This document shows, in pieces, positions 341-34,734 of a DNA stretch of 34,734 bases; within the stretch, counting starts at the first letter, position 1, and every line of letters begins with the position of its first letter. This DNA comes from Cytauxzoon felis. Its lineage: Eukaryota > Apicomplexa > Aconoidasida > Piroplasmida > Theileriidae. The notes beneath the pieces were generated by a model, which did not search any database, was not told the origin of the DNA, and saw only the letters and a list, made by a program, of their open reading frames with translations. The stretch spans positions 1 to 34,734 of the forward strand of contig JAIQCW010000139.1 of NCBI GenBank assembly GCA_020283715.1, read 5' to 3'. Position numbers and translations under genes: made by a program.

Positions 341-690
341 TCACCTGAGGTTACCTCCAACTCTTCTTCCACTCGCCGTTCCACCTGAGGTTACAATCCA
401 CCTTTCCTTCGTCTTGCAGACAGCTCTTCCAATTACCTATCTCTAAAGAGTAGAGCCACTCCCGGAGATCGTGGCAGAAGTGTAGTGGATTGGACATCAA
501 GTGGAACCTGCAGCTGATCTATGGAAGCGGAGGGTAAGGTAAATAAGTGAGCCGCCACGGCGAGTGGAAAAGAGAGTAGTATTGGACCTCAAGTGGACTA
601 CCCGTAGCTGATCTCAGGGAAGCGGAGGGGGAACTAAATAAGGAAGCCTCCACGGCAGTGGGAACAGAGTTGGATTGGACCTCATGTGGA
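341..690. repeat. GC-rich modular repeat cluster 1
   Basis: A mosaic of boundary words (ccacctgaggttac near 380, ttggacctcaagtgg near 580, attggacctcatgtgg near 673) and hairpin modules: GTCTTGCAGAC at 411-421, CTCTAAAGAG near 443, CCACGGCGAGTGG near 556 and CTGATCTCAG near 610. Modules occur in both orientations. It fills the space between the convergent 3' ends of the MYG1-like gene and the next minus-strand gene. It stands out by GC content from the AT-rich surroundings. No convincing protein was recognised here. Confidence 0.85.
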
Positions 691-859
691 ACACATACTG
701 CAATGACCTATGGCGTTACAGCAAGTCTAAAAATGGACTTCAACTGTGCTGTATAAGATTAATATATTAAATTTAATTATTTGACATTAAATTAAAAGTG
801 ATTAAAACCCGACAATATGAAGTGGGGTCATTTAAATAATTAATTTATATTATAAATTT

Positions 860-2169
860 TTATCCTTCTGTATCTACGAGTGGGAATACATAATAATAGA
901 CATGTATTTCATCTGATGTTGATCCGGACATGTATGTTTTGATTAGTAGAGCCCCATTATCTTTAATCATAATTTTGATCTTTCTTGAAAATTTGAGTCC
1001 ATTTGCTACACATTGTAAACATTTAGTACCATATTTATGTAATCTTGGTTTCGTGACATGATATTCATCAAAGATGTTCCTATTGAAACAGAAATCCCAT
1101 TTTACTGAAATTGTTGAATTTTCACGTGCCTGATAAATATAATGAGAAAATGATGGGGTAAAATATACAAACCATTCCTAATACATAATTAGAATCATCA
1201 ACTGCAGGTAATACTTCCATTATTAGTTTACTACATGTTGAATCCATTGTAATATCAGCAATGCATGGATATAAAAGTTTAGGCTGAAGAGATGGGGTTG
1301 AAAATTCATATTCAACATACTGCGATTGTAAAGTAATCAAAATTACTATTATTATTGAAATCCCAATCTTCAAATGGAATTTGTAGCTTTAATAAGGTCA
1401 TGAAAAAAAATTGTTAACCCAATTAAACTTACAGGTGACATTTGTATAGTCTTCAATTTGCAGTATAAATATTGTTCAACCTCAGATGAATGTTTATACT
1501 TATCATAATTTGTACATTTCCCTTTTAAAACAATATGTCTATCACTAGAATTATAAGATAATGTGATCTCATTCTAATTTAATGTTATATAAATAATTAT
1601 ATCTCAACTAACATTTGGTGAATACATATTAATACAAATCAATAAAGCTTGTAATGATACTACAACATCAGCATATCTACTCCCTTGAAATTCATCATCA
1701 TATGTAAATGTATATTTATTGAATAAATTCTTAGATATACTAACACAACTATACATTGATTGCCCACTCATCATCGATTGTATCATTAAATCTATATATT
1801 CATAGATGATGTAACACTCTCCTTCAACATACATTGTGGTTTGAATACAAAATGTATATAAAATAAGTTCCTCATCCTCATACCATGATGATAATCTCCA
1901 GCAGATGCCTTGACCAATGAAAAATTACGTCCTATAAAATATATATTATATCCTTCAATAAACTCACCACTCAATGATGGATTTATAGATAACAATAGTT
2001 GTTTCATAAATCCAGCAGCATGTAAAGCACATTCTACAGTTATCTCATTTATCGATCTCAAAGTCCTATCATCCGGTTCATTATCCCAAAATTCACCAAT
2101 CGGTGATTGCTGAGAATCTATAGTCTGAGAACAAAGAATTTTACTCCTAGAAATGTACAACTGAGACAT
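860..2169 (-). CDS. cysteine-bearing protein of unknown function, five exons
   Basis: On the minus strand, ATG at 2169 opens an exon (MSQLYISRSKILCSQ...) that continues through introns near 1821-1880, 1569-1609, 1327-1432 and 1132-1175 to TAA at 860-862. The product is about 350 residues and carries scattered cysteines (VLKGKCTNYDKY, LYPCIADITMDSTCSKL, KWDFCFN, GTKCLQCVANG), suggesting disulfides and an exported or surface protein. No signal peptide or membrane span is visible in these exons. An in-frame TAA lies upstream of the ATG, but an AG acceptor sits there too, so a further leader-encoding exon is possible. I do not recognise the family. The 3' end faces the MYG1-like gene across repeat cluster 1. 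Confidence 0.55.
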
Positions 2170-2403
2170 TTTTCTATGTCTAATGCTCAATTATCGAAAA
2201 ATCAGTACAACATCCTCCTCATAAAATTAGACGAGAGGTAATTACAATATCAAAAGATAATACCTCAGTCTTGGAAATATAATTACAACATCGTAATATA
2301 ATACTTTGATTTCGAAGTTAAACTCCACTTCAATTTGGAAAATGATACTTTACCTCCACCTTCAACACACCACATGAGTCCAAATTAATACATCAACAAT
2401 GAA

Positions 2404-5174
2404 ATGCGCATTTTTGTATACTTAAAATGTATAGTATCTCTTGTAATTAGTAATGTCAATGTACTTTTCTTAAACTCTATAGGATTTAAATACGACAACC
2501 ATTCGAATCAAAGCCAGAGGCTTTGTAGGAATCCTATAGGTATTGTCTACAGCAATGGCTTTATAAATTTAAAACCTTCTAATGGCTTAATAAACTCCAA
2601 TAGGAGCGAATTTTATCGGCAAAAATGTAATTCTTTACCGTTGAACTATTCAGACTATGTAAATGAGAAAAAGACACCAAGAGTTTCAACAACTAAGACT
2701 GTCTATAACATTTTGGCTATAGAAACTAGTTTTGATGACACATGTGCAGCTATAGTTAATAGGTACTTAAAATTACATTATAAAATTATAAAAATATAGT
2801 AACGGCAATGTACTTGCTGAAGAAAGAGTGTCTCAAGGCCTCTTTAATCAGAAGTTTGGTGGTATGAACCCTAGTGAATCAGTTAAAGTACATAAAGAGA
2901 AGATATATACTGTTATTGATTCAGTATTAAAGTCAGCTGGTATGTTAAATTCACTGAACACATATATTTATTATTAGGACTATCTATCGAAGATGTAAAT
3001 CAAATTGTAGTAACAAAAGGACCAGGTGTTGAAATATGTTTAAGAGTTGGATACAATGTTGCATTGGAATTATCTGAGAAGTATAATATAGAATTGATGG
3101 CTGAGAACCATATAGCAGCACATTGTATATCACCTATGATAAAAAATAATCAATTTCGATTTACACCCAAGTTCAAATCGCAATCAACTAATGTATATTC
3201 ATTTTTCTATCAAATTTATATAATTTTAGGCGTTGAGATATCCATACCTTTGTTTATTATTGTCTGGTGGTCATTCTCAGATTTATGTCGTTGAGAATCC
3301 CATAAAATTCCATCTAATTTCAGATACTATGGATCAATATGTTGGTAATGTACTTGATAAATGTGCAAGGTTAATTATAGATTTAAATCTTTATATTATT
3401 TTTTTTTAGAGAATTGAATTTATCTCTACTTACTGGTGGTGCTCCAGAATTAGAAGCTGCTGCTTCAAATTGTAAAGAATCACCTTATAAATTTACTATA
3501 CCTTGTAGAAATAATCCATTCTCTCAATTCTGGTATGTATACCATTCCATGTTCTATAGGTCAATATTCTTTTAGTTTCTCTGGAATTATAACACAATTA
3601 GTTGATGAAGTAAATAGAGCCCTGAATGATCATAACATAAAAAATATTGAAGATTTACCATCAAATATTATCAATCAATTAGCATTTTCAGTACAAGATG
3701 GTTTGATGAATTCATATATAATCACATCAATCATACTTCAGTCGTATTTCAACAAGTCTTAATCCAATTAGATAAAGCCATGGATATCTCCGAATGCCTC
3801 TTTGGTATCAATAAACTAGTCTTCGTCGGTGGTTTGTTGATTCACTAACATGAAATTACAACCCTCCACCTGAGGTCGTCCTGCCGTCTCCACTTGAGGT
3901 CCTTCCATCTTTCCCATTGCATGGAGCTTCTCTATTTATTTCCCCCTCAAACTCCCGTAGATCGTTTTCGGGTATTCCACTTGTGGTCCAATCACAAATT
4001 TCACTACTTCATTTTTACCCCCAAAATTTGACGAAAATCCTTAATTTCTGGGGAAACTCATGAAGATTGTGGAATGATTATTGGATGTATTTCTAATGTT
4101 AATACTTCATTGTAAAGGACTTTGATGATTGTATTTGATTTACTGAACCTTACTTCATTCCATTTTATTTTCATTGAGATATCTTCACAAACATAGATTC
4201 CATGACTTTAGTCGTATCTCATCGAGATTAGGTTTATAACCTCAGGTGGAACCCGTAGCTGATCTCAGGGAAGCGGAGGGGGAAGTAAATAGAAGAAGCT
4301 GTCTGCAAGACCAACCTCAGGTGGAGAGTAGGATTGGACCTCGAGTGGATTATACATCGGGTGGAATAAGTTCATTTGGATGTAATAAATATTGAAATAT
4401 AGGTGTTGCATGTAATAATAGATTGAAGGAGTTGATATTATTATTATTTGAATATCGTAATAAGAATAGGATAAATAGATATAGAATATTTTATAAGAAG
4501 ATGATATTATATATGAAGAAATATATGATAATGGGTGGTTTATATAATAAATGTATAGATAATGATAGAATAATTAAGATTAAAGAATATGCTAATAAGA
4601 ATTATACAATAGATGATTTAATTGAATCATTATGGGATTCACAATCAACATTACAATTTTTAAATGATGATAATAGTTTTCGTATTAGTAATATATCAAA
4701 AATTGAATTATTTAGATCATTACATGATTTATATTTTAATTCAATAAATACAGTACAATTTCTTAAATTAAATAATAATATTAAAGATGCATTAGATAAT
4801 GATATTATTATTAAACCATCAATTGATATTTTAAATAAAATTAAATATTTAGAAAAACCAAATTCATTACTTATTTCTAATCATATTAAAAATTATTATA
4901 ATAATAATAATAAATGGGAATTATATACTACTAGTAATAAATATTCTACTGATAATGCAGTTATGATCTCATTTAGTCTATTAGAAAAACATAAGTATAT
5001 TTTATATATCATCTATAATCATTAATCATTTATAGAATTGGTATCAATGGTATCATTAATGAATCTAAAATCAATGGTAAAGATGTATTACCCAAATGGA
5101 ATCTAGCTCATCGAAAACATTGGGAATTATTACAACATATCTGTAAACTACACTCTTTTATAACTAATGAATAA
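2404..5174 (+). CDS. KAE1: Kae1/TsaD/Qri7-family tRNA t6A transferase, probably apicoplast-targeted
   Basis: Nine exons (2404-2762, 2800-2939, 2978-3192, 3230-3369, 3410-3532, 3576-3700, 3742-3831, 4403-4994, 5036-5174) join in frame to 640 codons. Family landmarks in order: [27 protein letters not shown], the metal-binding H-x-x-x-H in [53 protein letters not shown] and STDNAVMIS with the final metal-binding Asp. The family transfers threonylcarbamoyl to A37 of ANN-decoding tRNAs. About 100 residues precede the domain, starting with a hydrophobic leader ([15 protein letters not shown]) and a basic Asn/Ser-rich stretch, as in apicoplast bipartite leaders; targeting is inference. An Asn/Lys/Ile-rich insertion of roughly 150 residues separates [11 protein letters not shown] from the DNA motif, which family members normally have close together. 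Intron 7 is 571 bp and holds a repeat element. Confidence 0.88.
3866..4370. mobile_element. composite inverted-repeat element inside KAE1 intron 7
   Basis: GC-rich modules at 3866-3996 (including CCATTGCATGG at 3914-3924 and a CTCCCGTAGATCG word) and at 4240-4370 (CCCGTAGCTGATCTCAGGG, GTCTGCAAGAC) lie in opposite orientation around an AT-richer core at about 4012-4233. The core is clearly related to the one at 10432-10662: both share TTTCTGGGGAAACT (4045 and 10468), GAAGATTGTGGAATGA and ATCTCRTCGAGATTAGG. Other introns of the host gene are 35-41 bp, this one 571 bp, so the element explains the excess. No transposase is encoded. The mobile label is inferred from two copies at unrelated loci. 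Confidence 0.65.
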
Positions 5175-5216
5175 TTATTATATATAATATCGAAAATACT
5201 CTAGACAATATTACTT

Positions 5217-5460
5217 CCACTTGAATCCACTATTTCCAGTCGATGTCCAATCATACTCTTCGTTCCACCTTTCTTCGTCCTGCCGTCAGCTTTCTCTATT
5301 TACTTCCCCCTCCGCTTCCCTGAGATCAGCTACGGGTTCCACTCGAGGTCCAGAACTATTATTCATTCCACTTGAGGTTACATCCAACATATCCTTAGCA
5401 CCATCTTCCATCATTCCCATGATGGATGATCCATCACTACACTTCATCACTACCTTCACT
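5217..5460. repeat. GC-rich modular repeat cluster 3
   Basis: Contains CTGCCGTCAG near 5280, the CCCTGAGATCAGCTACGGG hairpin near 5318, boundary words ccactcgaggtcc and ccacttgaggttacatcc, and a longer hairpin CCATCAT-TCCC-ATGATGG at 5408-5425 that recurs at 25533-25550 with the same flanks. It begins about 40 bases after the KAE1 stop and runs straight into the open frame of the next gene, so it marks that gene's 5' breakpoint. Confidence 0.85.
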
Positions 5461-9659: not shown

Positions 9660-9708
9660 AAAAGAGAGATTCTACCACTAGTATATAACCATATTTTCCA
9701 TTACACTC

Positions 9709-9950
9709 TCCACCTGAAGTTACAACCTTATCTTCGTCCTGCCGTCAGCTCTTCTATTTACCTCCCCTCGGATTCCCTGAGATCATCCTCGGTATGATGT
9801 CTACCCCGAAGAACGAAGATGTTCAACCCGGAGGAACAGAACTCGGGTATGTAGATTGGACCTCATGTGGACTACCCGTAGCTGATCTCAGGGAAGCGGA
9901 GGGGGAGGTAAATAGAGGAGCCTCCACGGCAGTGGAATGAAAGCATATCC
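9709..9950. repeat. GC-rich modular repeat cluster 5
   Basis: Starts with ccacctgaagttac, then CTGCCGTCAG, a variant of the third module in which the hairpin is replaced by ATCAT-CCTCGGT-ATGAT (near 9783-9799), an inserted stretch to 9850, then the inverted words attggacctcatgtgg, CTGATCTCAGGG and CCTCCACGGCAGTGG. Lies downstream of the FAINT-like gene. Confidence 0.8.
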
Positions 9951-10305
9951 ACTTCCAGGTTGTTCTACTCAATATATCCTAACAACTTTATACTCTGAAA
10001 AATGCAGTAGGATTCATTTCTTAAATGTATAGTAGTGATATTAAATTATTAATATGAATAACGTAATGTATCGATTAAAGTATTGTAAATTGTAGTTTAT
10101 TATTCTTGTCAAATGTACCATAGGATTTTAAAATAATAAAGTCTTGTTTCAACTTTGTAAAATAGTGTTTAATTGTAATTAAATGGGAATGAAATGTCTC
10201 CAATAATTTGGTGATGTAATATCACTTAAATACATGTAAATATAATGTAGTATATTTATATTATACATATTAAACTATTGAACAGTTCCTATATCGATGA
10301 CATTA
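9951..10305. other. AT-rich intergenic stretch, nothing recognised
   Basis: About 350 bases of low-GC sequence between two repeat clusters. No open frame of note, RNA gene or clear signal was seen on either strand. Confidence 0.6.
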
Positions 10306-10756
10306 CACTCGAAGTCCAATCCTACTCTCTTCGTCTTGCAGACAGCTTCCTCTATTTACTTCCCCCTCCAGCTCCCGTAGATCGCTTCCAGGTTCAATTT
10401 TAGGGCTCCACTTGAGGTCCAATCATTATCTTCATTTTTAACTCGAAAATTTGAAGGAAATTCATCATTTCTGGGGAAACTACTGAAGATTGTGGAATGA
10501 ATATTGAATGAAATTCTAATCTCAATATTTCATTGAAAAGGAACTTGATGATTCTATTGAGTTTATGAAACCTCATTTAATTCCAAGTTATATTCATTGA
10601 AATATCTAGACAAACATGAATATCGTCACTTTATCCTTATCTCGTCGAGATTAGGTTATAACTTCAAGTGGAACCTGGAAGCGATCCACGGGAGCTGGAA
10701 GGGGAAGTAAAAGGAAGAGGCCTCCACGGCAGTGGGAACAGAGTTGGACATTGGGT
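10306..10756. mobile_element. composite inverted-repeat element, paralogue of the KAE1 intron element
   Basis: GC-rich modules at 10306-10430 (GTCTTGCAGAC near 10341, CTCCCGTAGATCGCTTCCAGG) and 10663-10756 (CTGGAAGCGATCC...GGGAGCTGG, CTCCACGGCAGTGG) are inverted relative to one another around a core at 10432-10662. The core matches 4012-4233 over its whole length with scattered changes. It lies between the FAINT-like gene and the 3' end of the uS10 gene. No protein is encoded. Two copies at unrelated places and the inverted ends suggest a MITE-like, non-autonomous element. Confidence 0.62.
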
Positions 10757-10767
10757 GTTTTGGTAAT

Positions 10768-12089: not shown

Positions 12090-14510
12090 TCAATCCATTG
12101 TAAAATATAAATCAGCAGCTTTTTGTTCTTTATCCTTAACAGAATCTAATTTATTAATTCGAGGTCTGAAATTAGTAGGATCTCTTCTAAAAGTTACATC
12201 CAATGATTTCAAGAATCGATTAAAGCCAACAAATAAAGGCTCTGGTGCTAAAGCAGTAGCCTCAATACTATAAAAAGAATGATGAAGAATAATTTTTTTA
12301 TAAAAAAATACCCAGGTTTGCCTTCAAAGACAATGACTCTATTAGCTAAATAAGTAGCCATTATGAAGTCATGTTCCACTACGAATGTCGTTTTTTTATG
12401 GAAAAATGTAAATCTTTTTATAATTTTACTAGCTAAAATACGTTGTTCAGAATCTAAATATGCTGAAGGCTCATCTATAAGATATATATCAGCAGGTTTT
12501 CCTAACACTAAAATCAATGCTACACGCTGTAATTCACCACCAGATAGATTCTTAACCTGATTATCTAATAATCCTTCAACTTGTAAAGGCTTTACTACAT
12601 CTGTCTGAAATGATGGATTAGCAAATGATTCCCTTATCTTTGTTAAAAATAATTGCCTCAATGTACCATCAAATTTTGCTGTAATAGTTTGTGGCTTGTA
12701 ACTGACCGATAATTTAGGCATATCATTTTCAGCACCCGAATTACTAGGCTCCATTACACCAGCAAGCATCCTAAAATACAATTAATCAACACCATATATT
12801 AAACCCACTTTATAAATGTCGTTTTACCCGTACCATTCTCACCAAGCAATACTATAATCTCAGAATCACAAAAATCACCAGGCATAACCTTCAATGTAAA
12901 TGAACCCAATTCCTTAGTCAACATAGGATATTTATACGAATGTAAACGCTGAAAATATATTATATATATAAGTAAGTCATAAACAAATGTTGACATTACA
13001 CGAGGCATAAGTTTTTGTTCCACCTTAGGTCCAATCCACCTCTCCTTCTCTTGCAGAGAGCTCTTCCAATTACCTATCTCTAAAGAGTAGAGCCACTCCC
13101 GGAGATCGTGGCGAAGGTAGTGATGAAAGTATAGTTGAGGATGTAACCTCAAGTGGAACCCGTAGCTGATCTATGGGAAGCGGAGGGGGAAGTAAATAGA
13201 AGAGCTGTCTGCAAGACGAAGAAAGGTGGATTGGACTTCAGGTGGAGCAAACAACAGATTTTCCACTTCATTTACTGTAAACAAACCTCGACTTCTTCCA
13301 TATCGATATCGGCGGCGACTTTGAAGCAGAGTGATTCGTCTCTGAATCTGAGATTTTCGGTTGGTATGAAGCCTAAGAATTCATGGATTTATATGGAGCA
13401 AACTTACCATCTAGGAATATATTTATCCCTTCCTTAACGGTAAAGGGTGAGGTGACTACACCATAGACAGAGGGTTTACCCCAAAGACAACAAACATAAT
13501 CCGATAGATAATCCAAGACAGATAAATCATGTTCTACTACAATTATATAACGCTCATGTTGTATACATTGACGTATAGTTCTGGCAGCTATGATCCTCTG
13601 CCTAATGTCCAAATAACTACTGGGTTCATCAAACATTAACACGTCAGTATCGCATAAAATCGCGACACAAATAGCAAATCTCTGCAATTCTCCACCTGAT
13701 AATTCAGAAACTTTGCGCGACATTAAATGAGATAATTCTAAAGTCACTACTAAATCATCAGCCATTCCTCTCTTATCTTTAGATTCTATGATCTCACCAA
13801 CAGTCCCAGAGACCTGAAAAAGTATGGGATGAAACATTATAAGTTCCAACCTGTTTAGCAATATTATCCACATATTGAGGCTTGACAGCCGTCTTTAAAT
13901 TGTCCGCTTGCATCCTCGTAAAGTAACCTTGAAGTTCTGATCCACGAAAGTATTGCAAAATCTCAGGCCAATCAGGTGGATCGTTATACCTCCCCAAATT
14001 TGGCTTCTGTTTCCCAGCTAAAATCTTCAAGGCCGTAGACTTCCCAATACCATTGGTACCAACAAGTCCAAGGATCTACAAGTAAAAATGATATATAATA
14101 ACTCTAACATACTTGGCCAGGCCTGGGAACAGGTAATCTATGAAGCTTAAAAGTATTAGGTCCAAAGCGATGAGTCGTATCCTTTCCTAGATCTCTAGGC
14201 AAGTTAATGATATTTATAGCCTCAAATGGACATTTTTTAACACAAATACCACATCCAATACATAAATGCTCCGATATAAATGCGATTTTACTGGTAGGCT
14301 CTACTACAATACACTGTTTTCCTATAGATAATATATAAAGGAGGTATATTACGGTCATAAAGTCAAACCTGTCTTAGTTACAGGGCAATTACGCCTACAT
14401 TCCTGTCTACATTTTTTTGGTTTACATTTATCAGTAGAAACTATAGCTATACGCAATTTACTATCAGTAAATCCAGAATCTGAATCTTTATTCCTATCTT
14501 GCCTACGCAT
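12090..14510 (-). CDS. ABCE1: ABCE1/Rli1, iron-sulfur ABC ATPase of ribosome recycling
   Basis: Eight exons on the minus strand (14369-14510, 14113-14321, 13851-14075, 13408-13813, 13287-13372, 12809-12948, 12312-12770, 12090-12267) join in frame to 614 codons, the usual family length. The N-terminus has the two iron-sulfur motifs ([16 protein letters not shown] and [16 protein letters not shown]), then the first Walker A (GTNGIGKST), signature LSGGELQR and Walker [14 protein letters not shown], then a second set: [23 protein letters not shown] and [16 protein letters not shown]1 splits 80S ribosomes after termination and aids initiation; it acts in the cytosol. All residues needed for ATP binding and hydrolysis appear intact. 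Introns are 35-50 bp except intron 5 (12949-13286, 338 bp), which contains a repeat cluster. One donor reads GTGGGT. Confidence 0.95.
13019..13246. mobile_element. inverted-repeat element inside ABCE1 intron 5
   Basis: The two ends form near-perfect inverted repeats of about 48 bp: the left starts ccaccttaggtccaatcc and carries CTCTTGCAGAG (13048-13058); the right, read on the other strand, starts ccacctgaagtccaatcc and carries GTCTTGCAGAC. The hairpin stem differs at its outer pair (C-G against G-C) while the loop is the same. Inside are CTCTAAAGAG, CCACTCCCGGAGATCGTGG and CCCGTAGCTGATC modules. The host intron is some 300 bp longer than its neighbours. Confidence 0.7.
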
Positions 14511-16056: not shown

Positions 16057-16070
16057 TTAAATTTAATATT

Positions 16071-16893: not shown

Positions 16894-17072
16894 CCACCTA
16901 AGGTCGTCCTGCCGTCAGCTCTTCCTTTTATCTTCCCCTCAAGCTCCCGTAGATCGCTCTCGGGTTCCACTCGAGGTCCAGTACTATTCTCCATCTCCAC
17001 GATCTCTGGGAGTGGCTTTACTCTTTAGAGATAGGTAATTGGAAGAGCTGACGGCAGGACGACCTTAGGTGG
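16894..17072. mobile_element. 179-bp element with perfect 32-bp terminal inverted repeats
   Basis: 16894-16925 (starts ccacctaaggtcgtcctgcc) is the exact reverse complement of 17041-17072 (ends ggcaggacgaccttaggtgg). Between them lie a CTCCCGTAGATCG module, the boundary word ccactcgaggtcc and the pair CCACGATCTCTGGGAGTGG and CTCTTTAGAG (17021-17030). It sits between two divergent genes, where promoters would be expected. Perfect identity over 32 bp suggests a recent origin or selection on the hairpin. Confidence 0.75.
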
Positions 17073-17305
17073 AACATCAAGTAGAAGACAATTCTTACTC
17101 GAGTAGATAGTATTTATACATCAAGTTTAGTCTGTACTATTCTTCTATGCTCAATATTCTTACCTATGCACTATGCATCTCATCAAGGAAAAAATTTCTC
17201 TTCATATCATCTTTCACATATCACTCTACTTTTCTTATAATAAATCTCACTTATAATGTTATTTACATCTCAAATAATCTCATCTCCTTGCTGTAATGTG
17301 TAGAA

Positions 17306-20888: not shown

Positions 20889-20994
20889 CCACCGAGGTCC
20901 AATCCAACTCTCTTCGTCCTGCCGTCAGCTTCTCTATTTACCTCCCCCTACGCTTCCCTGAGATCAGCTACGGGTTCCACCTGAGGTTACATCC
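20889..20994. repeat. single-unit GC-rich repeat
   Basis: The cleanest unit in the window: boundary word ccaccgaggtccaatcc, CTGCCGTCAG hairpin, ttctctatttacctccccct, CCCTGAGATCAGCTACGGG hairpin and closing word ccacctgaggttacatcc. It begins 70 bases after the SRP68 stop. Confidence 0.85.
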
Positions 20995-21364
20995 TCTAAT
21001 AATATATAAATTAATTGAATTACAATTATTATAATTAATATATAATATCGTTTACAACTGAAGTATAGGTTTGTATTAATTTTATAAAAGTGTAGTTATT
21101 TATATATATCTATATATATCTTATATAAGTAGTATACTACAATTCATGTTAGTAGATATATAGTATATATATTATTATAATTATTTATATTAATACTTAT
21201 ATAGCTTCATATAACTATACATCATCCTTCAATTGTATTATTATAAAAGTATATGTTATATTTAAAGAGAAATCTTCAATAGACATTAATATTATAGGGT
21301 AAATAGTGTTTATTATCCCGACACTTCTGGGGTATCAAAGTATCTATTTATTGTGCTTATACTT
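20995..21364. repeat. AT-rich segment duplicated at 33223-33550
   Basis: About 370 bases without a gene. Stretches such as catgttagtag, aattatttatattartactta and catccttcaattrtatta recur in the same order at 33223-33550. Both copies lie between two GC-rich clusters and between convergent genes, so they look like copies of one larger intergenic unit. Confidence 0.6.
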
Positions 21365-21500
21365 CTGCCACGATCTCTGGGAGTGGCTCTACTCTTTAGA
21401 GATAGGTAATTGGAAGAGCTGACGGCAGGACGACCTCAGGTGGAGAGGCTCCACGCCGAGTGGAAGAGAGTAGAATTGGACCTCGGTTGGAGAGCCTTCG
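21365..21500. repeat. GC-rich modular repeat cluster 10
   Basis: CCACGATCTCTGGGAGTGG, CTCTTTAGAG (21392-21401), CTGACGGCAG, the boundary word gacctcaggtgg, CTCCACGCCGAGTGG and a closing attggacctcggttgg followed by ccttcggtgtata. That last tail also follows the cluster that ends at 26785. It lies 65 bases from the NAC alpha stop. Confidence 0.8.
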
Positions 21501-23206: not shown

Positions 23207-23262
23207 TGTGTAAAAAAAAATTTCATTATATAATTGGTAATAATTAATTTATATTAATAGAC

Positions 23263-24433: not shown

Positions 24434-24453
24434 AATTTTAATATATATATGAT

Positions 24454-25322: not shown

Positions 25323-25379
25323 AAAGTAAATTTATTACACATTATATTTACGAAATTTGACATCTAATCCATTTTTACT

Positions 25380-25662
25380 CCACTCGAGGCCCAATCCTGC
25401 CGTCAGCTCTCCACTTGAGGTCTTTCCACTCGCCGTGGTGGCCTTCCTTATTTACCTCCCCCTCAAACTCCCGTAGATCGTTCTCGGGTAGTCCACTCGA
25501 GGTTGCATCCAACACATCCTTAGCACCATCTTCCATCATTCCCATGATGGATGATCCATCACTACCTTCACCACGATCTCCGGGAGTGGCCTCACCCTTT
25601 AGGGATAGGTAAATAGAGAAGGCGCCACGCCTAGTGGAAGACAAGGTTGTAACCTCAGGTGG
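25380..25662. repeat. GC-rich modular repeat cluster 11
   Basis: Contains CTGCCGTCAG, CCACTCGCCGTGG, CTCCCGTAGATCGTTCTCGGG, the long hairpin CCATCAT-TCCC-ATGATGG at 25533-25550, CTCC-GGGAG, and CCCT-TT-AGGG at 25595-25604, which replaces the CTCT-TT-AGAG found elsewhere. The minus strand is open through the whole cluster and would read [20 protein letters not shown], the same peptide seen inside the HPR-RAP gene. Confidence 0.85.
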
Positions 25663-25775
25663 ATATACTTCAGGTGAATGAATGAAGAGTATATTGATTG
25701 ATAGATGTGATGAATGAGTAAATTATGATTAAATTAATTAATGTATGGAATAAATGGTTCCCAGCTTATAGGATG

Positions 25776-26258: not shown

Positions 26259-26263
26259 GCTTG

Positions 26264-26785
26264 TTATTCCATATTCGAATTATGAGGATCATCATGGTGT
26301 CTTTTATCATTATGAGGTTTTTTATCCCCAGAAATCCCCACATTTTTATCTTCTCCACTCGAGGTTACATCCCTATTAATCCTACTACCTTCACCTTCTA
26401 GTACAACCTTTCCTTCGTCTTGCAGACAGCCTCCTCTATTTAGTTCCCCTTCCAGCTCCCGTAGATCGCTTCCAGGTGTCCACTTCCACTTGAGGTCCAT
26501 TAACTACATTCGAAGTATGTTCTTCCGGGTTAACATCTTTTGTTCCACTAGGCGTGATGCCCCTTCTATTTAGTTATCCCTTCGCTTCCCAGAGATCAGC
26601 TACGGGTTCCACTTGAGGTTACATCCTCACTACCTTCATCATCGCCACGATCTCTGGGAGTGGTTTTACTCTTTAGAGATAGGTAATTGGAAGAGGCCAC
26701 CACGGCGAGTGGCAAAGAGTCTGATTGGACCTACGGTGGAGGCGTGTGGAAGATGAGGTGGAGGTAACCTTCGGTGTATATGTTT
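26264..26785. repeat. GC-rich modular repeat cluster 12 with a GDKKPHN-encoding word
   Basis: Begins with tatgaggttttttatcccca at 26311-26330, identical to 28123-28142. Then GTCTTGCAGAC, CTCCCGTAGATCGCTTCCAGG, CCACTAGGCGTGATGCC, CAGAGATCAGCTACGGG, CCACGATCTCTGGGAGTGG, CTCTTTAGAG and CCACCACGGCGAGTGG, with boundary words in both orientations. It ends in ccttcggtgtata, right on the stop codon of the HPR-RAP gene. Confidence 0.8.
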
Positions 26786-29700
26786 AAATAAAGGAGGTAT
26801 ATTTTTTGGCGTTATCATTGAAGTTAGCGATGGTATTAGCGATGAGATTTTTAAGATTATTATTATTGATGGCTTGTTGTAGATCGGAGTGTTTAATTTG
26901 TTGTAATCCATAACCTAATAATTGTAATTGTCTTTGTCTTAATAATGTTGATGATCTTAATCTACCATTAGGTGTTAATATATCCTATATGATATATATT
27001 ATATTATATTATATATATATATACATACTGTGGGATTAATTATATCTAATAATTGATTTTCATATGGAAATGATATACTAATACGATATACATTTTCAAT
27101 AATTTGAACTTTTTTATGGGGTATATTCATCTATAAAAAATTATAAAAATGTGGGGTAAAGAGAAAAAAATAAAAACAAACATTAATTAATATTTCTGAT
27201 ATCGATGAATCATAATCTATATTTAATAATGATGATTTATTAAATTTTTGTATTAATAAATCATCTCTTTGATAATCTAACCATTCTTGTAATATTAAAT
27301 AAATAGAATTATTATTAATAAATTGTTTAAAATTTATACATTTAATTAAATGTAATGATATTTGTTGGGCAGAAAATATATCAATTGGTAATATATTTTT
27401 AAATTTAATTAAATGATTATTAATAAATTTTATTAATATATCATCTTCACCAAGTATAATACAAGACCATATAAATCTAATATAACCATCAAAATCATTA
27501 ATATTAATCTTATCATTATATATTATAGATATTAATTTTAATTTCTCTTTAACCCATGATATATTTTTATTACATTCTGTTAATAACCATATCAATTTTG
27601 TAATCTTATCCCAATTATATATTCTAGATTCATAGTGTAAATCAATAATATCATCACATAAATCAATTATATAATCATTATATATACCAATCCTAATACA
27701 ATCATAAACTAAATCTATCTTATCATAATCTATCATATTATCAGATATTAAATCAATATCATCCCTATTCAATATATTCATACCAGACATTATACCTGAA
27801 GTCCTATCCTTGTCTTGCAGACGGCTTTCTCTATTTACTTCCCCCTCAAACTCCCGTAGATCGTTCTCGGGTAGGCCACTCGAGGTTACATCTCTATGTT
27901 CTTCACTCAACGTTACTTTCCCATTGCATGGAGCTCTTCTATTTAGTTGTCCCTCCGCTTCCCGTAGATCGTTCTCGGGTAGGCCACTCGAGGTCATGTA
28001 CTCATCATCACGTTCTTCCTGGATGATATTAGTTGTACCAGTTGATAAATTATGGGGAGAATTATAGGGTAATTTTATATTATGGTGTTTTTTATCTATA
28101 TCATGGGGTTTATTATCATTATTATGAGGTTTTTTATCCCCATAACCCTCTTTTACCACATTTTTTCCACTCGAGGTCCTGTACTCATAACCTTCACCTT
28201 CTAGTACAACCTCTCTTCCCACTGCCGTGGTGCCTCCTCTATTTACCTCACCCTTCGCTTCCCTGTGATCAGCTGCGGGTTTTCCACTTGAGGTTACATC
28301 ACTACCTTCTTTATTGCCACGATCTCCGGGAGTGGCATCACCCTTTAGGGATAGGTAAATAGAAGGGCTGTCTGCAAGACGACTTACGGTGGAGGTAACC
28401 TCAGGTAGATAGGCTCCACGCCGAGTGGGATCAGACGCGGATTGGACTTCGTGTACATCACGATTGAATTTGATGCTATTGATAGCTTTATTAAATGAGT
28501 TATATAGTTGTGTATTATGATATAGATGATATTGTATGATATTCCTTTGTGAATGTGTAAGATTACTGGTAGCATTAATGAATTTAACAAGTGTCTTTGA
28601 TTTATCATTGTTATTTAAATTAGATTTAATTAATTTATTTATAATTGATGGTAATTGTTTTAGTATTGTATTGATTATAGAATTATGATTAGTAGATTTA
28701 ATACATTTAAATAAAATTATTATATGATTTATATTAAAACAATACCATTTAGATATTCTTTGTTGTATAAGTTCAATTAATATATAAAATAATTTATTAA
28801 ATTGTTGTAATAAATTTAATTTATATAAAATTTGTATTAATAATAATAAATCTTCTGCATATAATTTATTAATAAATTTATTTAAATAATTTATTAATTT
28901 TATAAAAAATTTTATTATTTATTATATTTACATTTATATAACTTAATATTATATCTATTATATTATATGGTTTTATTAAATATAATTTATTTATTATTAT
29001 ATTCATTAATTTATTATAAAAATATTCATCATATATATTAGAATATCCTATTGTTAATTTTACTAATTGTAATGGGGTAAATTCATTTAATAATAATAAT
29101 GTTTTTTTTTTAATAATTTATATAATAATAAATTATTATTATAATTTATATTATATATTGTTATTATACATGATGTTATATCATATATTGTCATTTCATT
29201 TATCTTATATTGTAATATTATAAATAATTCATTAAATAATTCATAATCTATTATATTCGAATTATTCAATGACCATAATATTATCGATATATCCTTACAA
29301 CTCATATTCATTATCTCATACCTTATCATCGATGATATACTATACGAATAATACTCATAATCCAACTCACCCAATCGAGATAATGACCATAGGATGTTGA
29401 CTGCAGAATGATGATCCATCATACGGTCCCTCATACGAAGGTCATTGACCGAAGTGTGATGGAATGAAGTGTGATGATCATTGACTAAAGGGTGATGATC
29501 ATTATTCTTTATCATATCCATCTTGATATCAAGCGAAGAATTTTCTTCCCTAGTAGAATTTTCTCTTCTTCTCTCTTTTATTTCCCTCTTCGAGGAATTT
29601 TCTTCACTCACTTCAATCGTAGAATTTTCTCTTCTTCTTCCTTTTATTTCCCTCTTCGAGGAATATTCTTCTTTCGTCGTAGAATTTTCCATCATGATAT

Positions 29701-31838
29701 CAAGCGAAGAATTTTCCTCGTACCCCACATCAATCGAAGAAAATTCCTTCCTCGTAGAAAATTCCATCATCCCCACACCATTCATCAGCAGCATCTCATG
29801 TTTTGTCGAAGAAAATTCTTCCTTCGAAGAAAATTCCTCGTTCCTCGAAGAATTTTCCTTCCTCATCACATTCGGAGAAATTTCCTTCCTCGCTACGCTC
29901 TTCAGGTCCTCCTCCTTCGTCGTCGTCACTTCCCTCCTCGTTTCACTCGTCGGAAGATCGCTCAAAAGTCCCTTCAATCCCTTAATCAATCTATAATCTC
30001 TAAAACCCAACTTCGCTAATGACCATAAGATACTACTAACATCATTAATATCCAATTCATATAATCTATTCAATAATACACTACCAATCTTACTAAATAT
30101 AATAGGATTCCTAACATTCAATCTAGCTAATGATGTTGATATACAAATTAAATCCTTAATATTAATATAATCAATCATCTTATCCTGTATAATATTAATT
30201 AATTTAAAGCGTAATTCAATACACGAGTCCAATTTATTATTAATTCTAGACAAACAATATAAACAATTAGCAATCTCATTAAATTTCAATTCCATACTAT
30301 ATACATTTATATAATTTATTAAATCATCCAACCAATTAGGTGTCAATCTTAATTTTACAAGTGACCATAATATATTACTCAAACCTTGACCATCAAATTT
30401 TTCAATACAATCACCAATCATATCAATCAATCTCTTAAACCCCTCATTATTACATATAATAAAACGCTTATATGAATTCGAATATCTAGCCAATCTATAT
30501 AAAGCAGTAGACATATTCACATTATTAAATTCATTCAAACTATTACCAATCTCTAGCAAAATTTGTGATTCATTCCTAGTCTTCATCAAATTCTGCTGTA
30601 TAATTATATGATTCGGATTCATATTCAACCATGTCTCAGGCTCCAATTTAGTCTCGGATTCAATTACAGCAGCAGGTGTAGTCGCATCTATAACAGAAGG
30701 TGAATCACCGAATATAGATTCAATGAGGGAAGCTTGTTCCGACGGAGGAGGATCTGAAGAGCGTAGCGATGAAGGTTGCTCTGAACGAAGTGAAGGAGGT
30801 AACTTCGACGAACAGAGTGAGGAGGGAGGAAGATCTGAGCGAAGCGAGGATGGTGGAGGGAGTGTAGATTTAGTGGATGATGGAAGTTCCGAGTGAAGCG
30901 AGGATGGAAGATGAGAGGATGGAGAACATCCCGAGTATCTGGAATCTCTCGATATAGTCGAATGATTGCAGGACTTCATCGAACTTCCATCATCCACTAA
31001 ATCTACACTCCCTCCTTCCTTCTGTCCTCCCTTCAATTTTGATATAAATCTAATGGGATTAATTTCTAATATAGAATCATCAACCCTAGTATCAGACTCA
31101 TTCAATAATGTCCTCATATAATAAGCATCACCCCTCAAATTTAAATCATTAACTAAATTATCAGATTCATCCACAATATTCCTATTAATCATAGGTAACT
31201 TCTCACGATTAACCTCACGTATATAACCTAATCCATCACCATCAGAAGCTAAACCACGGAAATTATCCAAGTCAACCAATTTAGAACTATTCTCAAGCTC
31301 ACCCAATGATTCTATAGATTGCTTAGCCTAAAATTAATATAATTTAATCAATCAATATAATACTCACCTTCGAAATCTGACGCTGAGAACGAATTCTAGA
31401 TTTATGCCTAAATTTCATCTTCCAAGCACTCTCAATCTCATTCAACTGCTGCCATACAGGCTTACCAGAATATAAATCATCCTCTGATAATGAATTGCGA
31501 TTAAAACGATTATTTGAACTATTAATAACCTCCTTTGTATCAACCTGCTTTATCGAAGACTGATAATTTGCAGTAAGACCAGATTCCTTAATACCAGGAG
31601 TAAAATGATTCAAAAAATCCCTATGCTCATCCAAATTCGATTGACTTGAGAAATTTCTACGACATACAGTACCCAAAACACACTTACATGCCGTACATAA
31701 AGAAGTCGTAAAACGAATAGATGAACCACAAATAAAATGAATTCCACTAAAATTCATAAAGTAAACATCTCTAGAATAAGAGAATTGATTAAGAGTAGAA
31801 TTCAATACTACCACGTGACCCCTCCTTCGTATAATCAT
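26784..31838 (-). CDS. very long HPR-RAP organellar RNA-binding protein with a repeat-derived insertion
   Basis: On the minus strand from ATG at 31838 (or 31757, which opens a better mitochondrial presequence, MNFSGIHFICGSSIRFTTS) to TAA at 26784-26786, about 1,640 residues. Exon 1 joins exon 2 by an intron near 31334-31377. Helical repeats of the apicomplexan HPR/FAST type recur: LSNILWSLVKLRLTP, DVSSILWSLAKLGFRD, AVNILWSLSRLGELDY, DISIILWSLNNSNIID. Low-complexity segments interrupt them (PSSLRSEQPSSLRS and EENSSKREIK repeats). The last exons, joined by introns near 27116-27185 and 26994-27030, hold a RAP domain (LLDIINPTDILTPNGRLRSS, LLRQRQLQLLGYGL). Such proteins handle mitochondrial rRNA fragments or mRNAs. 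About 200 residues at 27794-28455 derive from GC-rich repeats. The frame slips at two homopolymers (29102-29111 and 28904-28909). Confidence 0.75.
27794..28455. repeat. GC-rich modular repeats read in frame inside the HPR-RAP gene
   Basis: Modules seen elsewhere only in non-coding DNA are here translated without a stop on the minus strand: [19 protein letters not shown] and TSSGLPENDLREAEGQLNR in near-tandem, GDKKPHNNDNKPHDIDKKHH, and YLSLKGDATPGDRGNKEG from the CCCT-TT-AGGG and CTCC-GGGAG modules (28341-28350 and nearby). Hairpins CCATTGCATGG, CCACTGCCGTGG, GTCTTGCAGAC and CCACGCCGAGTGG are all present. I followed the frame codon by codon from 28222 to about 28560 and found no stop. Confidence 0.8.
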
Positions 31839-32347
31839 TTTTTAAGCGGTAATCTCCTCCTCAAATCATCAATTTTCTGCTCTAATTTAACATCATAAGG
31901 GAATTTAGGATAATTATCACCATACAACTTCCTCATCAAAAGCCATTTAGTAAAATCTTCAATTTCATGAGCTTTCATAGCCTCTACATCAATACCACGA
32001 GCAGTTAACTCATTAAACATATCACTACGAGGCTTATACTCAGGAACCTGACCCCTTACATATAAAGACCACCAACTATGACTATCACCTACAATCGAAT
32101 CACAAAAAGACTCAATCTTCTCATCAAAAGCTTCGTCCAAGCTCTCTTGACTTTCAGACGAGAATTTCACAACAAACGTCTTAATCGAAGAAATATAAAC
32201 CGAATTACTCAAATGTGCAATACTTTCATACCTGTCTATAAACAAATTCCGCTTACATGAAGCAAAGTTACATGTCTGATGTAAACATGTACGTATTTTT
32301 GACGGAATTACAGCGATTCTTGAATAATTAAAACAACAAATAACCAT
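31835..32347 (-). CDS. protein of unknown function with presequence-like head
   Basis: A single exon of 170 codons from ATG at 32347 to TGA at 31835-31837. The first 60 residues are basic and Ser/Cys-rich without many acids (SRIAVIPSKIRTCLHQTCNF), then comes a compact domain with DSHSWWSLYVRGQVPEYKPR, FNELTARGIDVEAMKAHEIE and FTKWLLMRKLYGDNYPKFPY, and a basic end (DDLRRRLPLKK). The layout suggests an imported mitochondrial protein, perhaps a lineage-specific complex or ribosome subunit; this is inference. Its TGA overlaps the ATG of the next gene downstream by four bases (ATGA). No family was recognised. Confidence 0.65.
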   Translation of the reverse strand: MVICCFNYSRIAVIPSKIRTCLHQTCNFASCKRNLFIDRYESIAHLSNSVYISSIKTFVVKFSSESQESLDEAFDEKIESFCDSIVGDSHSWWSLYVRGQVPEYKPRSDMFNELTARGIDVEAMKAHEIEDFTKWLLMRKLYGDNYPKFPYDVKLEQKIDDLRRRLPLKK

Positions 32348-32536
32348 GAGATTTTAGTTGTATTCACATTTTAAATTATTTATTCTCTTCTATAGACTCA
32401 AGTTTAGATGTTGGAGTGCAAGACAATCAACACTAGTCACAAAGTAAATGAAGAGCTAATAAGCTCTGTATTACTTTCTATATATTTTCATACATTGTAT
32501 GAAATTTCATGTATAATATTATGGAATTTATGAAAG

Positions 32537-33058
32537 ATGACCATGGATAATGTTGTAACAACTCCAGCAAATCCATTAAAGCCTTCCGAGACGAAGCTGG
32601 TTGAATTGCACAAAATGCTGACGGAAAATTGGCGTCAAAATTCCTTATGTAAAGGTCCATTGATATCGAAAATACCTCTTGCTTGTAATGATTTTTTAAG
32701 TACAAATGCTTTAAGGTCAAGAGAAGATTCGGATTTAGACTCAGAATTTGGGAAATTACTCCAAGATGGCGATGTTGATTTATTCCCTCTTGAATTACTA
32801 CAAAATAATAATATGGAATCTACAAGCTCAGATATGAAAATACAAAAGGGCAAGAATCAAAGACTACACGCCAAGCTCAAGACTATAGAAATGAAAGAAC
32901 AACATGACCAAGAACAAAATTCAGATATTGATAGCGCTCGTAAAAAAGATCGTATGGAACTAGATCATCATCTATTCAACGATAATGATGATGCACTCGT
33001 CGGAGACTACTGCTACACTTTCTGCGAAGAAGAACAAGAAATTGAAGATGAACAATAA
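32537..33058 (+). CDS. acidic protein of unknown function
   Basis: A single exon of 173 codons from ATG at 32537 (a second ATG lies two codons on) to TAA at 33056-33058. The N-terminal part has some order (KLVELHKMLTENWRQNSLCK, GPLISKIPLACNDFLS), the rest is highly charged and rich in Asp, Glu, Gln and Asn, ending in an acidic tail (FCEEEQEIEDEQ). No signal peptide, membrane span or known motif is visible. It diverges from the gene ending at 32347 across about 190 bases. Low-complexity content makes family assignment unsafe. Confidence 0.6.
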   Translation: MTMDNVVTTPANPLKPSETKLVELHKMLTENWRQNSLCKGPLISKIPLACNDFLSTNALRSREDSDLDSEFGKLLQDGDVDLFPLELLQNNNMESTSSDMKIQKGKNQRLHAKLKTIEMKEQHDQEQNSDIDSARKKDRMELDHHLFNDNDDALVGDYCYTFCEEEQEIEDEQ

Positions 33059-33111
33059 ACACAAGGAATGAAGAAACTACTACATTTGAAGAAATCACTA
33101 TCATCACTGTT

Positions 33112-33222
33112 CCACTCGCCGTGGTGGCCTTTCCACCTGAGGTTACATTCCTGCCGTCAGCTTCTCTATTTACCTCCCCCTACGCCTACCGTTAGTCGGC
33201 TACGGGTTCCACTCGAGGTCCA
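33112..33222. repeat. GC-rich modular repeat cluster 13
   Basis: CCACTCGCCGTGG, boundary word ccacctgaggttacatt, CTGCCGTCAG, then a variant of the usual CTGA-GA-TCAG hairpin that reads CCG-TTAGT-CGG before CTACGGG, and a closing ccactcgaggtcc. The variant keeps a stem although its bases differ. Confidence 0.8.
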
Positions 33223-33550
33223 AAACTATAATATTCTATTAATTTAATTATAATCGCATAATTAATTTCATTCAATCATTTATAACTCATGTTTAATATT
33301 ATAATAATTTTATAGAAGTTAGTTAAGTTAGTATTATTATTAGTATAATATAGTTAGTATAATACTTCACATCATGTTAGTAGTTATATACTATATATAT
33401 TATATTAATTATTTATATTAGTACTTATATATCATCATACAACTATATCTCATCCTTCAATTATATTAATATAGTAGTATATATTATAGAAATTATAAAA
33501 TGTTTAAAAGATATTAATACTGTGGGAATTATAGTGTTTTTATCCCTACA
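33223..33550. repeat. AT-rich segment duplicated at 20995-21364
   Basis: No gene seen. It shares ordered blocks with 20995-21364 (catgttagtag, aattatttatattagtactta, catccttcaattatatta, agtgttt..atccc) and, like it, is framed by GC-rich clusters between convergent genes. Confidence 0.6.
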
Positions 33551-33862
33551 TTTATAGTGCACCCGAGGTCTTCCCACTAGGCGTGATGCCTTCTCTATTA
33601 CCTCCCCCTTCGCTTCCCTGAGATCAGCTACGGGTTCCACTGAGGTCCAGTACTAACTCCACTTTCCATTCCACTCGCCGTGGTGGCCTCTCTATTTACC
33701 TCACCTCGACTCCCATAGATCGTCTCGGATTCCACTCGAGGTCTAATCCATACCTTCTCATCGCCACGATCTCTGGGAGTGGCTATACTCTTTAGAGATA
33801 GGTAATTAGAAGAGCTCCATGCAATGGGAAAGAGAGTTGGATTGGACCTCGGTCGTCGGATG
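33551..33862. repeat. GC-rich modular repeat cluster 14
   Basis: CCACTAGGCGTGATGCC, CCCTGAGATCAGCTACGGG, CCACTCGCCGTGG, CTCCCATAGATCG, CCACGATCTCTGGGAGTGG, CTCTTTAGAG and CTCCATGCAATGGG with boundary words ccactgaggtcc, ccactcgaggtc and, inverted, attggacctcgg. Ends shortly before the stop of the next gene. Confidence 0.8.
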
Positions 33863-33885
33863 TACTTCGATTGTAGTATTTATCA

Positions 33886-34734
33886 TTACAGGAGTATATT
33901 CTTCAATTCATTTACGACTTGTTGTGTGATATTGATATCTTGTGTATCGAATGATTGATTAGAGATGATATTCATGGCAATTTCGGCATTTTTATTATCG
34001 ATATCTGTTAGTATAATTAAAAGTATTGATGATGCATAATTTCTTAATGTAGGGTATGGATGTGTAAGGAACCATAATAAAGTATTAATAATATCATTTG
34101 ATATATAAATTGAAGAATAATTATAAAATATTTGAAAGCATTTAATAATACTTTTTAAATATGCATAATTTGTAGCAAATTTTGATTGTATTAACATTAA
34201 TTTTATAATTTTATCCCATTTATAATTTAATAAATTATAAGATGATAATATTTTTATAGTATTTGATATTTTATATAAATTTTTATAATCTTTTAAATTA
34301 ATTAATAATTTATAATATATAAAAATATTTTCTATAAATATATCTTCAAATAATTGTTTATTATTATTATATAATATAATTTTATATTTATTATTATTAA
34401 TAAAATTTATAAATACTTTTTCTAATATTATATTATTATATCCTATATCATTATTTATATTACCACCTATTATTAAACATATACGACTTGTAACTATAAA
34501 TGTATACTCTGGTATCAATATTATCCATAATAAATATTCAAATATTAATGATGTATAAGACCAACCAGGTATACGCAATGATACATTCATACGCTCAACC
34601 CTCATACGTAAATTACAACATATACCATCCTCTATACATTCACCCACATTGTAATCCATCTCATCTTCACTCTCATCATCTCCACTTGAGGTTACAACCT
34701 TGTCTTCCTCTTGCAGAGAGCCTTCCTTATTTAC
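33886..34734 (-). CDS. TBCD: probable tubulin-specific chaperone D (cofactor D), C-terminal part
   Basis: The minus strand is open from the window edge to the stop at 33886-33888. The last 150 residues are helical and include SFAT-type repeats ending in LLWFLTHPYPTLRNYASSIL and LIILTD, which correspond to the cofactor D end [20 protein letters not shown] and LLTY. Cofactor D binds beta-tubulin and helps form the alpha-beta dimer in the cytosol. Earlier parts are Asn/Ile/Lys-rich and diverged, so the call leans on this one motif and on HEAT-like form. The first codons in the window (VNKEGSLQEEDKVVTSSGDD) come from a GC-rich repeat read in frame, followed by an acidic stretch; either the repeat lies inside the coding sequence or an acceptor site there removes it. 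Confidence 0.55.
   Translation of the reverse strand, partial: VNKEGSLQEEDKVVTSSGDDESEDEMDYNVGECIEDGICCNLRMRVERMNVSLRIPGWSYTSLIFEYLLWIILIPEYTFIVTSRICLIIGGNINNDIGYNNIILEKVFINFINNNKYKIILYNNNKQLFEDIFIENIFIYYKLLINLKDYKNLYKISNTIKILSSYNLLNYKWDKIIKLMLIQSKFATNYAYLKSIIKCFQIFYNYSSIYISNDIINTLLWFLTHPYPTLRNYASSILLIILTDIDNKNAEIAMNIISNQSFDTQDINITQQVVNELKNILL
34682..34734. repeat. GC-rich repeat at the window edge, in frame with the gene
   Basis: Boundary word ccacttgaggttacaacc, the CTCTTGCAGAG hairpin (34709-34719) and the start of a tccttatttac tail. Cut by the window end. Confidence 0.75.

Follow-up and report, generated by a model that had tools for sequence, protein, structure and literature searches.

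We describe an abundant and highly organised family of GC-rich modular repeats in the genome of a piroplasm. The family was studied from a window of 34,734 bases (the whole of the starting stretch of DNA), which is contig C80 of a genome of 8,623,106 bases in 181 contigs. The repeats follow a grammar, are present in high copy number and with inverted symmetry, lie in introns and in open frames, and consist of modules that assort nearly independently. In the likeliest reading, which we hold to be probable, they are a high-copy family of short non-autonomous elements of the foldback type in the piroplasm nuclear genome; copy number, discreteness and presence in both introns and exons suggest that they have been mobile, and transposition would be the way in which they spread. 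Exact words were counted over the whole genome, and the counts of clusters, modules and grammar come from a sample of 284,734 bases (3.3% of the genome), made of the whole window and pieces of four further contigs.

The modules are a boundary word B (CCACYYGAGGT), the tags T1-T8 (small hairpins), a core C1 in three variants (ending CTACGGG, CTTCCAGG or TCTCGGG) and a core C2 (AAAGAGTAAAGCCACTCCCGGAGATCGTGGC); pyrimidine-rich linkers, e.g. TCTATTTACTTCCCCCT or AATTACCTATCTCT, stand between them. The sequence-only reading from which the analysis started had already named the boundary words, the short hairpins, the TTACYTCCCCCTC linker and a second hairpin, and all four are confirmed, the last being C1; it had missed C2 and the dyad symmetry. 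Its placement of the repeats between genes, in introns and in exons is likewise borne out, by GT-AG introns of two genes and by long open frames.

The 171 module groups of the sample comprise 83 dyads, 17 composites and 71 others, the last including half elements, longer or other interiors, arrays and truncations. In 100 of the 171 the modules follow the form [>B >T]n >C1 >B ... <C2 [<T <B]n, or two C1 arms enclose an AT-rich interior. A C1 variant is paired with C2 in opposed orientation in every dyad (83/83). The composite class is defined by two opposed C1 arms, so that the C1-C1 pairing there holds by construction; masked self-comparison, made independently of that definition, brought out 19 copies of the AT-rich interior, and C1 arms lie inverted on both sides of it in all 19 when aligned. 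The earlier description of modules in 'varied order' is therefore to be divided: the identity of tag and C1 variant varies freely, and order and orientation obey the grammar in those 100 groups. Inverted arms are present in the 83 full and 17 composite groups, each arm having 0 to 4 B modules and a length of up to about 190 nt. Loops are shorter than 60 nt in 93 of 110 cases and about 240-255 nt in the other 17; the listed dyads measure 191-349 nt and the composites 450-542 nt. Folds of the regions of two window elements (13020..13245 and 16894..17084) have z-scores of -8.3 and -12.4 against shuffles.

By a k-mer definition the sample holds 205 GC-rich clusters covering 35,734 of its bases (12.5%), or about one cluster per 1.4 kb; extended to the whole genome, the share would be about one-eighth. 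A first pass on 234,734 bases, whose overall G+C is 31.5%, had given 171 clusters, 10.8% of the bases and a mean cluster G+C of 52%. All cluster bases except 731 have a recognised module within 40 nt. The figure of about 15 clusters given earlier is right for the window, where 19 groups of at least three modules pair into roughly 14-15 elements, and is only local as a measure of abundance. C1 has 184 matches and C2 has 118 in the sample, and the reversed patterns have 0 and 0. Genome-wide, the words GATCTCNGGGAGTGGC and CTGAGATCAGCTACGGG, 16-17 bases long, occur in 2,472 (1,264+1,208) and 1,261 (624+637) exact copies and the interior word ATTTCTGGGGAAACT in 125+148, with 0 copies of each reversed control. 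On its own, the B word discriminates less well (746 matches at up to two mismatches vs 83 for its reversed form).

Exact words of the family are absent from viral contigs and GTDB genomes (one pattern each, covering viruses, bacteria and archaea and no other eukaryotes). Rfam at E up to 1 returned MIR7533 only, matched on the window inverted repeat 10355-10711 at 44.6 and 29.2 bits vs a gathering score of 230; we rejected this identity as the likeness of one long hairpin to another. Among the open-licence matches listed, none describes by title or abstract repeats of such kind in a piroplasm.

Two further sequence types were seen beside the modules. One is a second family of AT-rich interiors, each about 340 nt long with a G+C of about 0.17, which occurs in the window (20996-21333, 33246-33550) and on contigs C4, C8 and C9, and which often, not always, adjoins half elements of C1 or C2. 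The other is a GC word, TTCTTCCGGGT (e.g. window 26520-26545), present at 27 sites in the sample; 14 of these fall within element-bearing open reading frames (ORFs), where it encodes NPEEQ-type repeats.

The slot occupied by a tag has a property of its own. Of 301 core-adjacent slots, 201 contain a perfect hairpin whose stem has 4 bp or more and at least two G or C, vs a mean of 55 in five shuffles. Different stems occur round one TGC loop (GTCT-TGC-AGAC, CTCT-TGC-AGAG, CCAT-TGC-ATGG), suggesting that what characterises the slot is a hairpin and not any one sequence, perhaps through selection or through descent from a set of ancestral modules. Such a slot, and modules far more conserved than their neighbours, would also fit functional structured sites in DNA or RNA (terminators, origins, nucleosome- or protein-binding sites) under selection at each site. 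We regard this explanation as highly unlikely: the repeats lie in both orientations and between genes, in introns and in exons, their modules are interchangeable, and overall arms pair no better with their own partners than with swapped ones.

Exchange appears to take place by module more than by whole element, because C1 variant and tag are independent while the two halves of C1 agree. The halves flanking GATC are concordant in 161 of 184 C1 copies, recombinant in 8 and unassigned in 15. Independence was found for the C1 variant and the adjacent tag (176 pairs, mutual information 0.071, null 0.064, p = 0.32), the C1 variant and the far tag (n = 82, p = 0.38), the two inner tags (n = 78, p = 0.52) and the two C1 arms of composites (n = 17, p = 1.0). 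An excess of equal left and right tags (25/79 vs 17.5 expected, p = 0.027) was dropped given the inner-tag result. As for the 'combinatorial code' proposed earlier, the combinatorial part stands in that modules assort nearly independently; nothing shows anything encoded.

Within the 19 composites the interior has a mean pairwise identity of 78% (90% in the best 24-nt window), whereas the left cores of the same composites are 94-99% alike within a variant (3, 4 and 12 copies by variant); linkers are 84-85% and inner B words 82-89% alike. A genome search with the window interior gave 392 candidates, of which 40 were scored; the 39 outside the window are 83-86% identical. From these diverged interiors beside near-identical cores, the burst of composites looks old and star-like; conversion, replacement or constraint may have kept the cores uniform. 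Of 2,270 pairs of stretches at 90% identity or more, six reach at least 95% over at least 100 nt: one gene-family duplication without cores and five within elements, two of the five being on different contigs. One of the five is a tandem copy of 106 nt (C4 63924), and another, of 114 nt, lies in adjacent ORFs that carry elements on C8. A third is a 315-nt pair inside one gene on C9 (97.1% identical), in which identity extends from the left tag to near the C1 linker and next tag and the outer arms differ. C4 22099-22433 and C4 48797-49131 are inverted 335-nt copies at 99.1% identity, probably a recent gene-family duplication.

Two window genes carry elements in predicted introns, the gene names and motifs coming from our reading of the sequence. 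In a Kae1/Gcp-like gene a GT-AG intron of 571 nt (3832-4402) is made up of 72 nt plus a 499-nt composite, and in an ABCE1-like gene one of 338 nt (12949-13286) is made up of 112 nt plus a 226-nt dyad; in both genes the joined exons read through conserved motifs. In both introns examined the ordinary GT-AG ends lie outside the element (by 34 and 38 nt, and by 71 and 41 nt), so that the element does not supply the splice sites.

Cores were also found in 22 stop-to-stop ORFs of at least 250 codons, and 52 of the 56 cores there are in one reading, C2 sense and C1 antisense. Four of the encoded proteins were set against solved structures. The stretch that contains the element measures 153 residues in a GCL relative (27 in yeast glutamate-cysteine ligase), 92 in a YJU2B relative (4 in the structure), 374 in a CAF1B relative (42) and 305 in a NOG1-type GTPase (4 in PH1320, an archaeal NOG1-type GTPase). 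The extra stretches in GCL, CAF1B and the GTPase also contain non-element residues, and the YJU2B match ends a few residues inside the element. Flanking matches are weak in CAF1B (i-Evalue 0.018 for one flank) and in the GTPase (0.099 and 0.0056 for both flanks, 5e-8 for the whole sequence). The GTPase stretch sits between the P-loop and switch I; Pfam places GTP_EFTU at 74-106 (20.6 bits, below cut-off) and MMR_HSR1 at 396-443 (34.4 bits, above it). The discrete elements in short introns, with the stretches that interrupt conserved folds, give the appearance of integration of a defined unit. One frame of 1246 codons (C4 108749-112486), with ABC1 kinase-like and beta-lactamase-fold domains, has two full elements inside.

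An insertion of 305 residues between the P-loop and switch I would be hard to tolerate, which raises the possibility that the in-gene elements are introner-like, excised from RNA (perhaps with the help of the hairpin, as in Amoebophrya), so that the peptides are never made; inverted-repeat introners do occur in that other alveolate (PMC7789003). The splice sites outside the element in both introns argue against this, as does the single open frame of the 52 cores, needless if they were excised, even though the long-ORF requirement selects for such a frame. We consider introner-like excision decidedly unlikely. The C1 sequence GTAAAT reads CT in place of GT in 10 of 32 ORF copies vs 10 of 91 copies in frames of fewer than 60 codons, which is suggestive of avoidance of a splice donor in ORFs.

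The dominance of one frame could, conversely, mean that the elements are exonic modules of a protein repeat domain, of which the remainder are decayed copies. C2 leans that way: third positions make up 23 of 65 differences from the consensus in ORF copies vs 44 of 189 elsewhere (higher, not significant, p = 0.07). C1 goes the opposite way (7/48 vs 71/228, p = 0.02, lower), and the two cores together show no difference. Moreover, ORFs of at least 250 codons hold 20.7% of cluster bases vs 36.8% of other bases, a depletion to be expected if many insertions are removed. A proposed exonic subfamily defined by the spacer was rejected (2/14 vs 2.24 expected); exonic spacers are longer (median 51 vs 35, p = 0.0009). 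The spacing from C2 to C1 is a multiple of three in 14 of 14 ORF copies, as the ORF criterion forces, and falls in classes 0, 2 and 1 in 32, 23 and 14 of 69 copies outside ORFs. The 21 proteins that ranked best in the searches for RAP and NAC orthologs contain no words of the element peptides, and the element-bearing frame 27131-28222 has no protein homologs at E 0.001. The repeat-domain explanation, already disfavoured, is to our mind very improbable.

Among the three readings offered earlier, that of a non-autonomous mobile element is the best supported, by copy number, by inverted arms and by discreteness in short introns and exons. A recombination substrate for antigen genes is unsupported, with elements on every sampled contig and in housekeeping-type genes (ABCE1-like, GCL, NOG1-like, YJU2B-like and CAF1B-like) and no formal test made of enrichment near antigen families, synteny breaks or transcript ends.

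Several results weigh against mobile elements of this kind. There is no signal of target-site duplication: left and right flanks exceed the 99th percentile of the control in 1 of 99 cases, as by chance; old duplications could have been lost, since the outer ends are often degenerate. Empty sites yielded 0 candidates among paralogs within the sample. No mobilising enzyme was found among Y1, MULE, DDE_3 and tyrosine recombinase (P, hAT, piggyBac and TnpB were not searched), and the search for reverse transcriptase (RVT_1) genes turned up telomerase alone. Controls of the profile searches were prokaryotic genomes, and matched in 5 of 14 for the Y1 transposase (PF01797, RAYT) and in 3 of 14 for MULE; the control for Helitron was silent, hence that search was uninformative. 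The assortment of modules is also not wholly free, as core type (the C1 kinds or C2) and adjacent tag are associated (n = 290, p = 0.008). Overall, own arms pair no better than swapped arms (Kolmogorov-Smirnov p = 0.076, 82 dyads), and structure is thus not demonstrably kept element by element; compared with all swaps, 7 of 82 dyads rank at 0.05 or better (p = 0.12, not significant) and 4 beat every swap, a test that superseded an earlier one with 20 swaps (17/82 at rank 0.05 or better). Finally, outside exons too it is the exon frame that most often lacks stops (25/69 vs 11/69), the long-ORF criterion itself selects open copies, and the third-position share of C1 and C2 together does not differ (30/113 vs 115/417, p = 0.91). 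With codon positions mixed and the preferred frame the most open one outside exons too, the test for peptide selection is mixed and overall negative, and exonic copies look tolerated.

The lack of target-site duplications and of an enzyme would be natural if no transposition took place and quasi-palindromes grew and spread by host replication and repair, through template switching in hairpins and ectopic gene conversion. The GC clusters of some mitochondrial genomes offer an analogy. Conserved cores beside diverged interiors, near-free assortment of modules and the tandem copy at C4 63924 are consistent with this, and so are a few elements in which one flank repeats the other in inverted orientation: the control's 99th percentile is exceeded by 4 of 99 at 25 nt and by 3 of 99 at 60 nt (C8 52987 and C4 101241 ranking first), a small signal with about 1 of 99 expected. 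What speaks for insertion instead is the discreteness of the 226- and 499-nt elements in otherwise short introns and the interruption of conserved folds; we judge growth by host replication and repair with no transposition to be unlikely. The inverted flanks and the four best-matched pairs of arms are only hints of template switching in the hairpin. At C8 52987-53486 and C8 27272-27487 the mutually inverted flanks match, with small gaps, over more than 20 bases from the element edge outwards.

A complete element is an inverted repeat in which outer B words alternate with swappable small hairpins (T); in its centre two cores are opposed, either C1 and C2 with a loop of tens of bases between them or two C1 copies with the AT-rich interior of ~240 nt. 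In the foldback-type reading, elements would arrive by insertion, through some activity on hairpins or inverted ends. Ectopic gene conversion, or template switching in the hairpin, may then swap modules between copies or overwrite one with another, and within genes only insertions that preserve the open frame or are intronic would persist. The conserved entity would seem to be the DNA words and not the peptide.

We also put forward, tentatively and as a rather doubtful reading, a combinatorial hairpin system free of any transposase, in which the GC-rich hairpin modules and not whole elements replicate and move, as a nuclear counterpart of the Rickettsia palindromic elements (RPE) and of bacterial mosaics. 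If so, modules would have colonised about an eighth of a eukaryotic nuclear genome, conserved enzymes included. Modular palindromic repeats at about an eighth of the sampled DNA would alter the nearly element-free view of Theileria-clade piroplasms and would be a eukaryotic parallel to protein-coding palindromes. They offer a way to test how conserved enzymes tolerate additional peptides and how short hairpin modules can be copied and reshuffled with no obvious enzyme; the mechanism of module exchange is the interesting question.

The elements of the window are listed in Table 1. In the same window, 29490-30020 is an imperfect repeat of the GAAGAATTTTCTTC type in a FAST/RAP-like gene; it has no element modules and is open on both strands over 150 codons.

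Table 1. Elements and partial elements in the window (positions of the 34,734-base contig)
Position	Strand	Feature	Basis
341..689	.	Full dyad >B>B>B>T2>C2 <B<T3<B<C1<T7<B	Module grammar
3866..4364	.	Composite, 499 nt, in GT-AG intron 3832-4402 of Kae1/Gcp-like gene; left arm B-B-T5-C1c-B 3866-3987, interior about 3988-4238, right arm B-C1-T2-B 4239-4364	
5236..5378	+	Half element B-T1-C1-B-B	Modules
9710..9935	.	Two inverted C1 half elements (9710-9793, 9860-9935), short interior	Modules
10305..10735	.	Composite, arms 10305-10418 and 10661-10735, interior family as in 3866..4364 (10430-10657 80% identical to 4007-4234)	
13020..13245	.	Full dyad >B>T6>C2<B<C1<T2<B in GT-AG intron 12949-13286 of ABCE1-like gene (minus strand)	
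16894..17084	.	Full dyad >B>T1>C1c>B<C2<T1<B<B; long near-perfect hairpin, z-score -12.4	
20918..21490	.	C1 half 20918-20987, second AT-rich interior family 20996-21333, C2 half 21367-21490	
25380..25677	.	C1c half element, then inverted C2 half element	Modules
26355..26739	.	Array >C1b, >C1, <C2 with tags and boundaries	Modules
27812..27994	+	Two C1c halves in frame (antisense) within open frame 27134-28918 (minus)	
28167..28428	.	Full dyad in frame within open frame 27134-28918 (minus)	
33112..33219	+	Half element, degenerate C1, left of second interior family 33246-33550	
33559..33827	.	Array >C1 ... <C2, tags T4, T3, T5	Modules
34679..34721	+	Element cut by window end: B and tag T6	

FAINT and RAP domains and NAC-alpha homologs place the genome in the Theileria clade of piroplasms. 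Its NAC-alpha is 60% identical to that of T. equi and to that of T. orientalis by protein search, and in a tree of 14 rows the genome falls outside (T. equi + one row) + (T. orientalis + T. annulata), with a support of only 81/82. For comparison, the published assembly of Cytauxzoon felis has a G+C of 31.8%, 9.11 Mb and 361 contigs (PMC3748084). A survey of 64 apicomplexan genomes reported no Class II transposons. Cytauxzoon felis, Theileria parva, T. annulata and T. orientalis had no transposable elements of any kind in it, LINE-like elements were recorded in T. equi, and candidates for MITEs were dropped as likely false positives (PMC9141347).

Known systems share some features with the family and differ in others. 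MITEs are short, non-autonomous, high-copy elements with inverted repeats; the piroplasm elements differ in their modular arms, with no target-site duplication detected and no transposase found in the five families searched, one of which (Helitron) had a silent control. They are unlike SINEs and LINEs in that no tRNA was called in the window (ARAGORN, bacterial code) and telomerase accounts for the sole RVT_1 gene found. The introners of Amoebophrya, which are gene-invading inverted repeats of an alveolate host (PMC7789003), differ in that the ends of the piroplasm elements are not splice sites in the two introns and many copies lie outside long ORFs; membership fails on the position of the splice sites.

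Bacterial REP/BIME sequences are mosaics of short GC-rich hairpins with alternating orientation and interchangeable motifs. The piroplasm elements are mosaic hairpins too, and the REP/BIME-like reading proposed earlier holds as far as a hairpin mosaic in both orientations is concerned; it does not extend to their setting, which is eukaryotic and not confined to extragenic DNA, exons and introns being included, or to the Y1 transposase, for which the profile gave no match. Membership fails on location and on the Y1 result.

Foldback elements (FB, Galileo, Tetris) have inverted arms with a variable number of internal repeats, a variable middle and non-autonomous copies (PMC4079207). The piroplasm elements share variable-length inverted arms of internal repeats and a middle that is absent or variable (240-255 nt or about 340 nt). 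Their arms are at most about 190 nt, vs up to 1,735 bp in Tetris (PMC4079207), no 8-10 bp target-site duplication was detected and the genome has no Mutator (MULE) match; membership among foldback elements, as among MITEs, fails because target-site duplications were not detected.

RPE are characterised in two reports as short palindromic repeats, intergenic or in frame in conserved enzymes, which keep the open frame and whose target-site duplication is uncertain (PMC10969869, PMC2229807). The piroplasm elements are likewise palindromic and both intergenic and in frame within genes. They are mostly longer than 150 nt (RPE, about 100-150 nt), nuclear, present in introns too and composed of interchangeable modules, with thousands of copies and about 12% of the sampled DNA. 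The likeness to RPE is one of behaviour only, no RPE sequences having been compared; that to foldback elements lies in arms and middle, and that to BIME in the mosaic hairpins, and membership is shown in none of these families. By analogy, the piroplasm elements would behave within genes like RPE, with modular arms resembling those of foldback elements and BIME.

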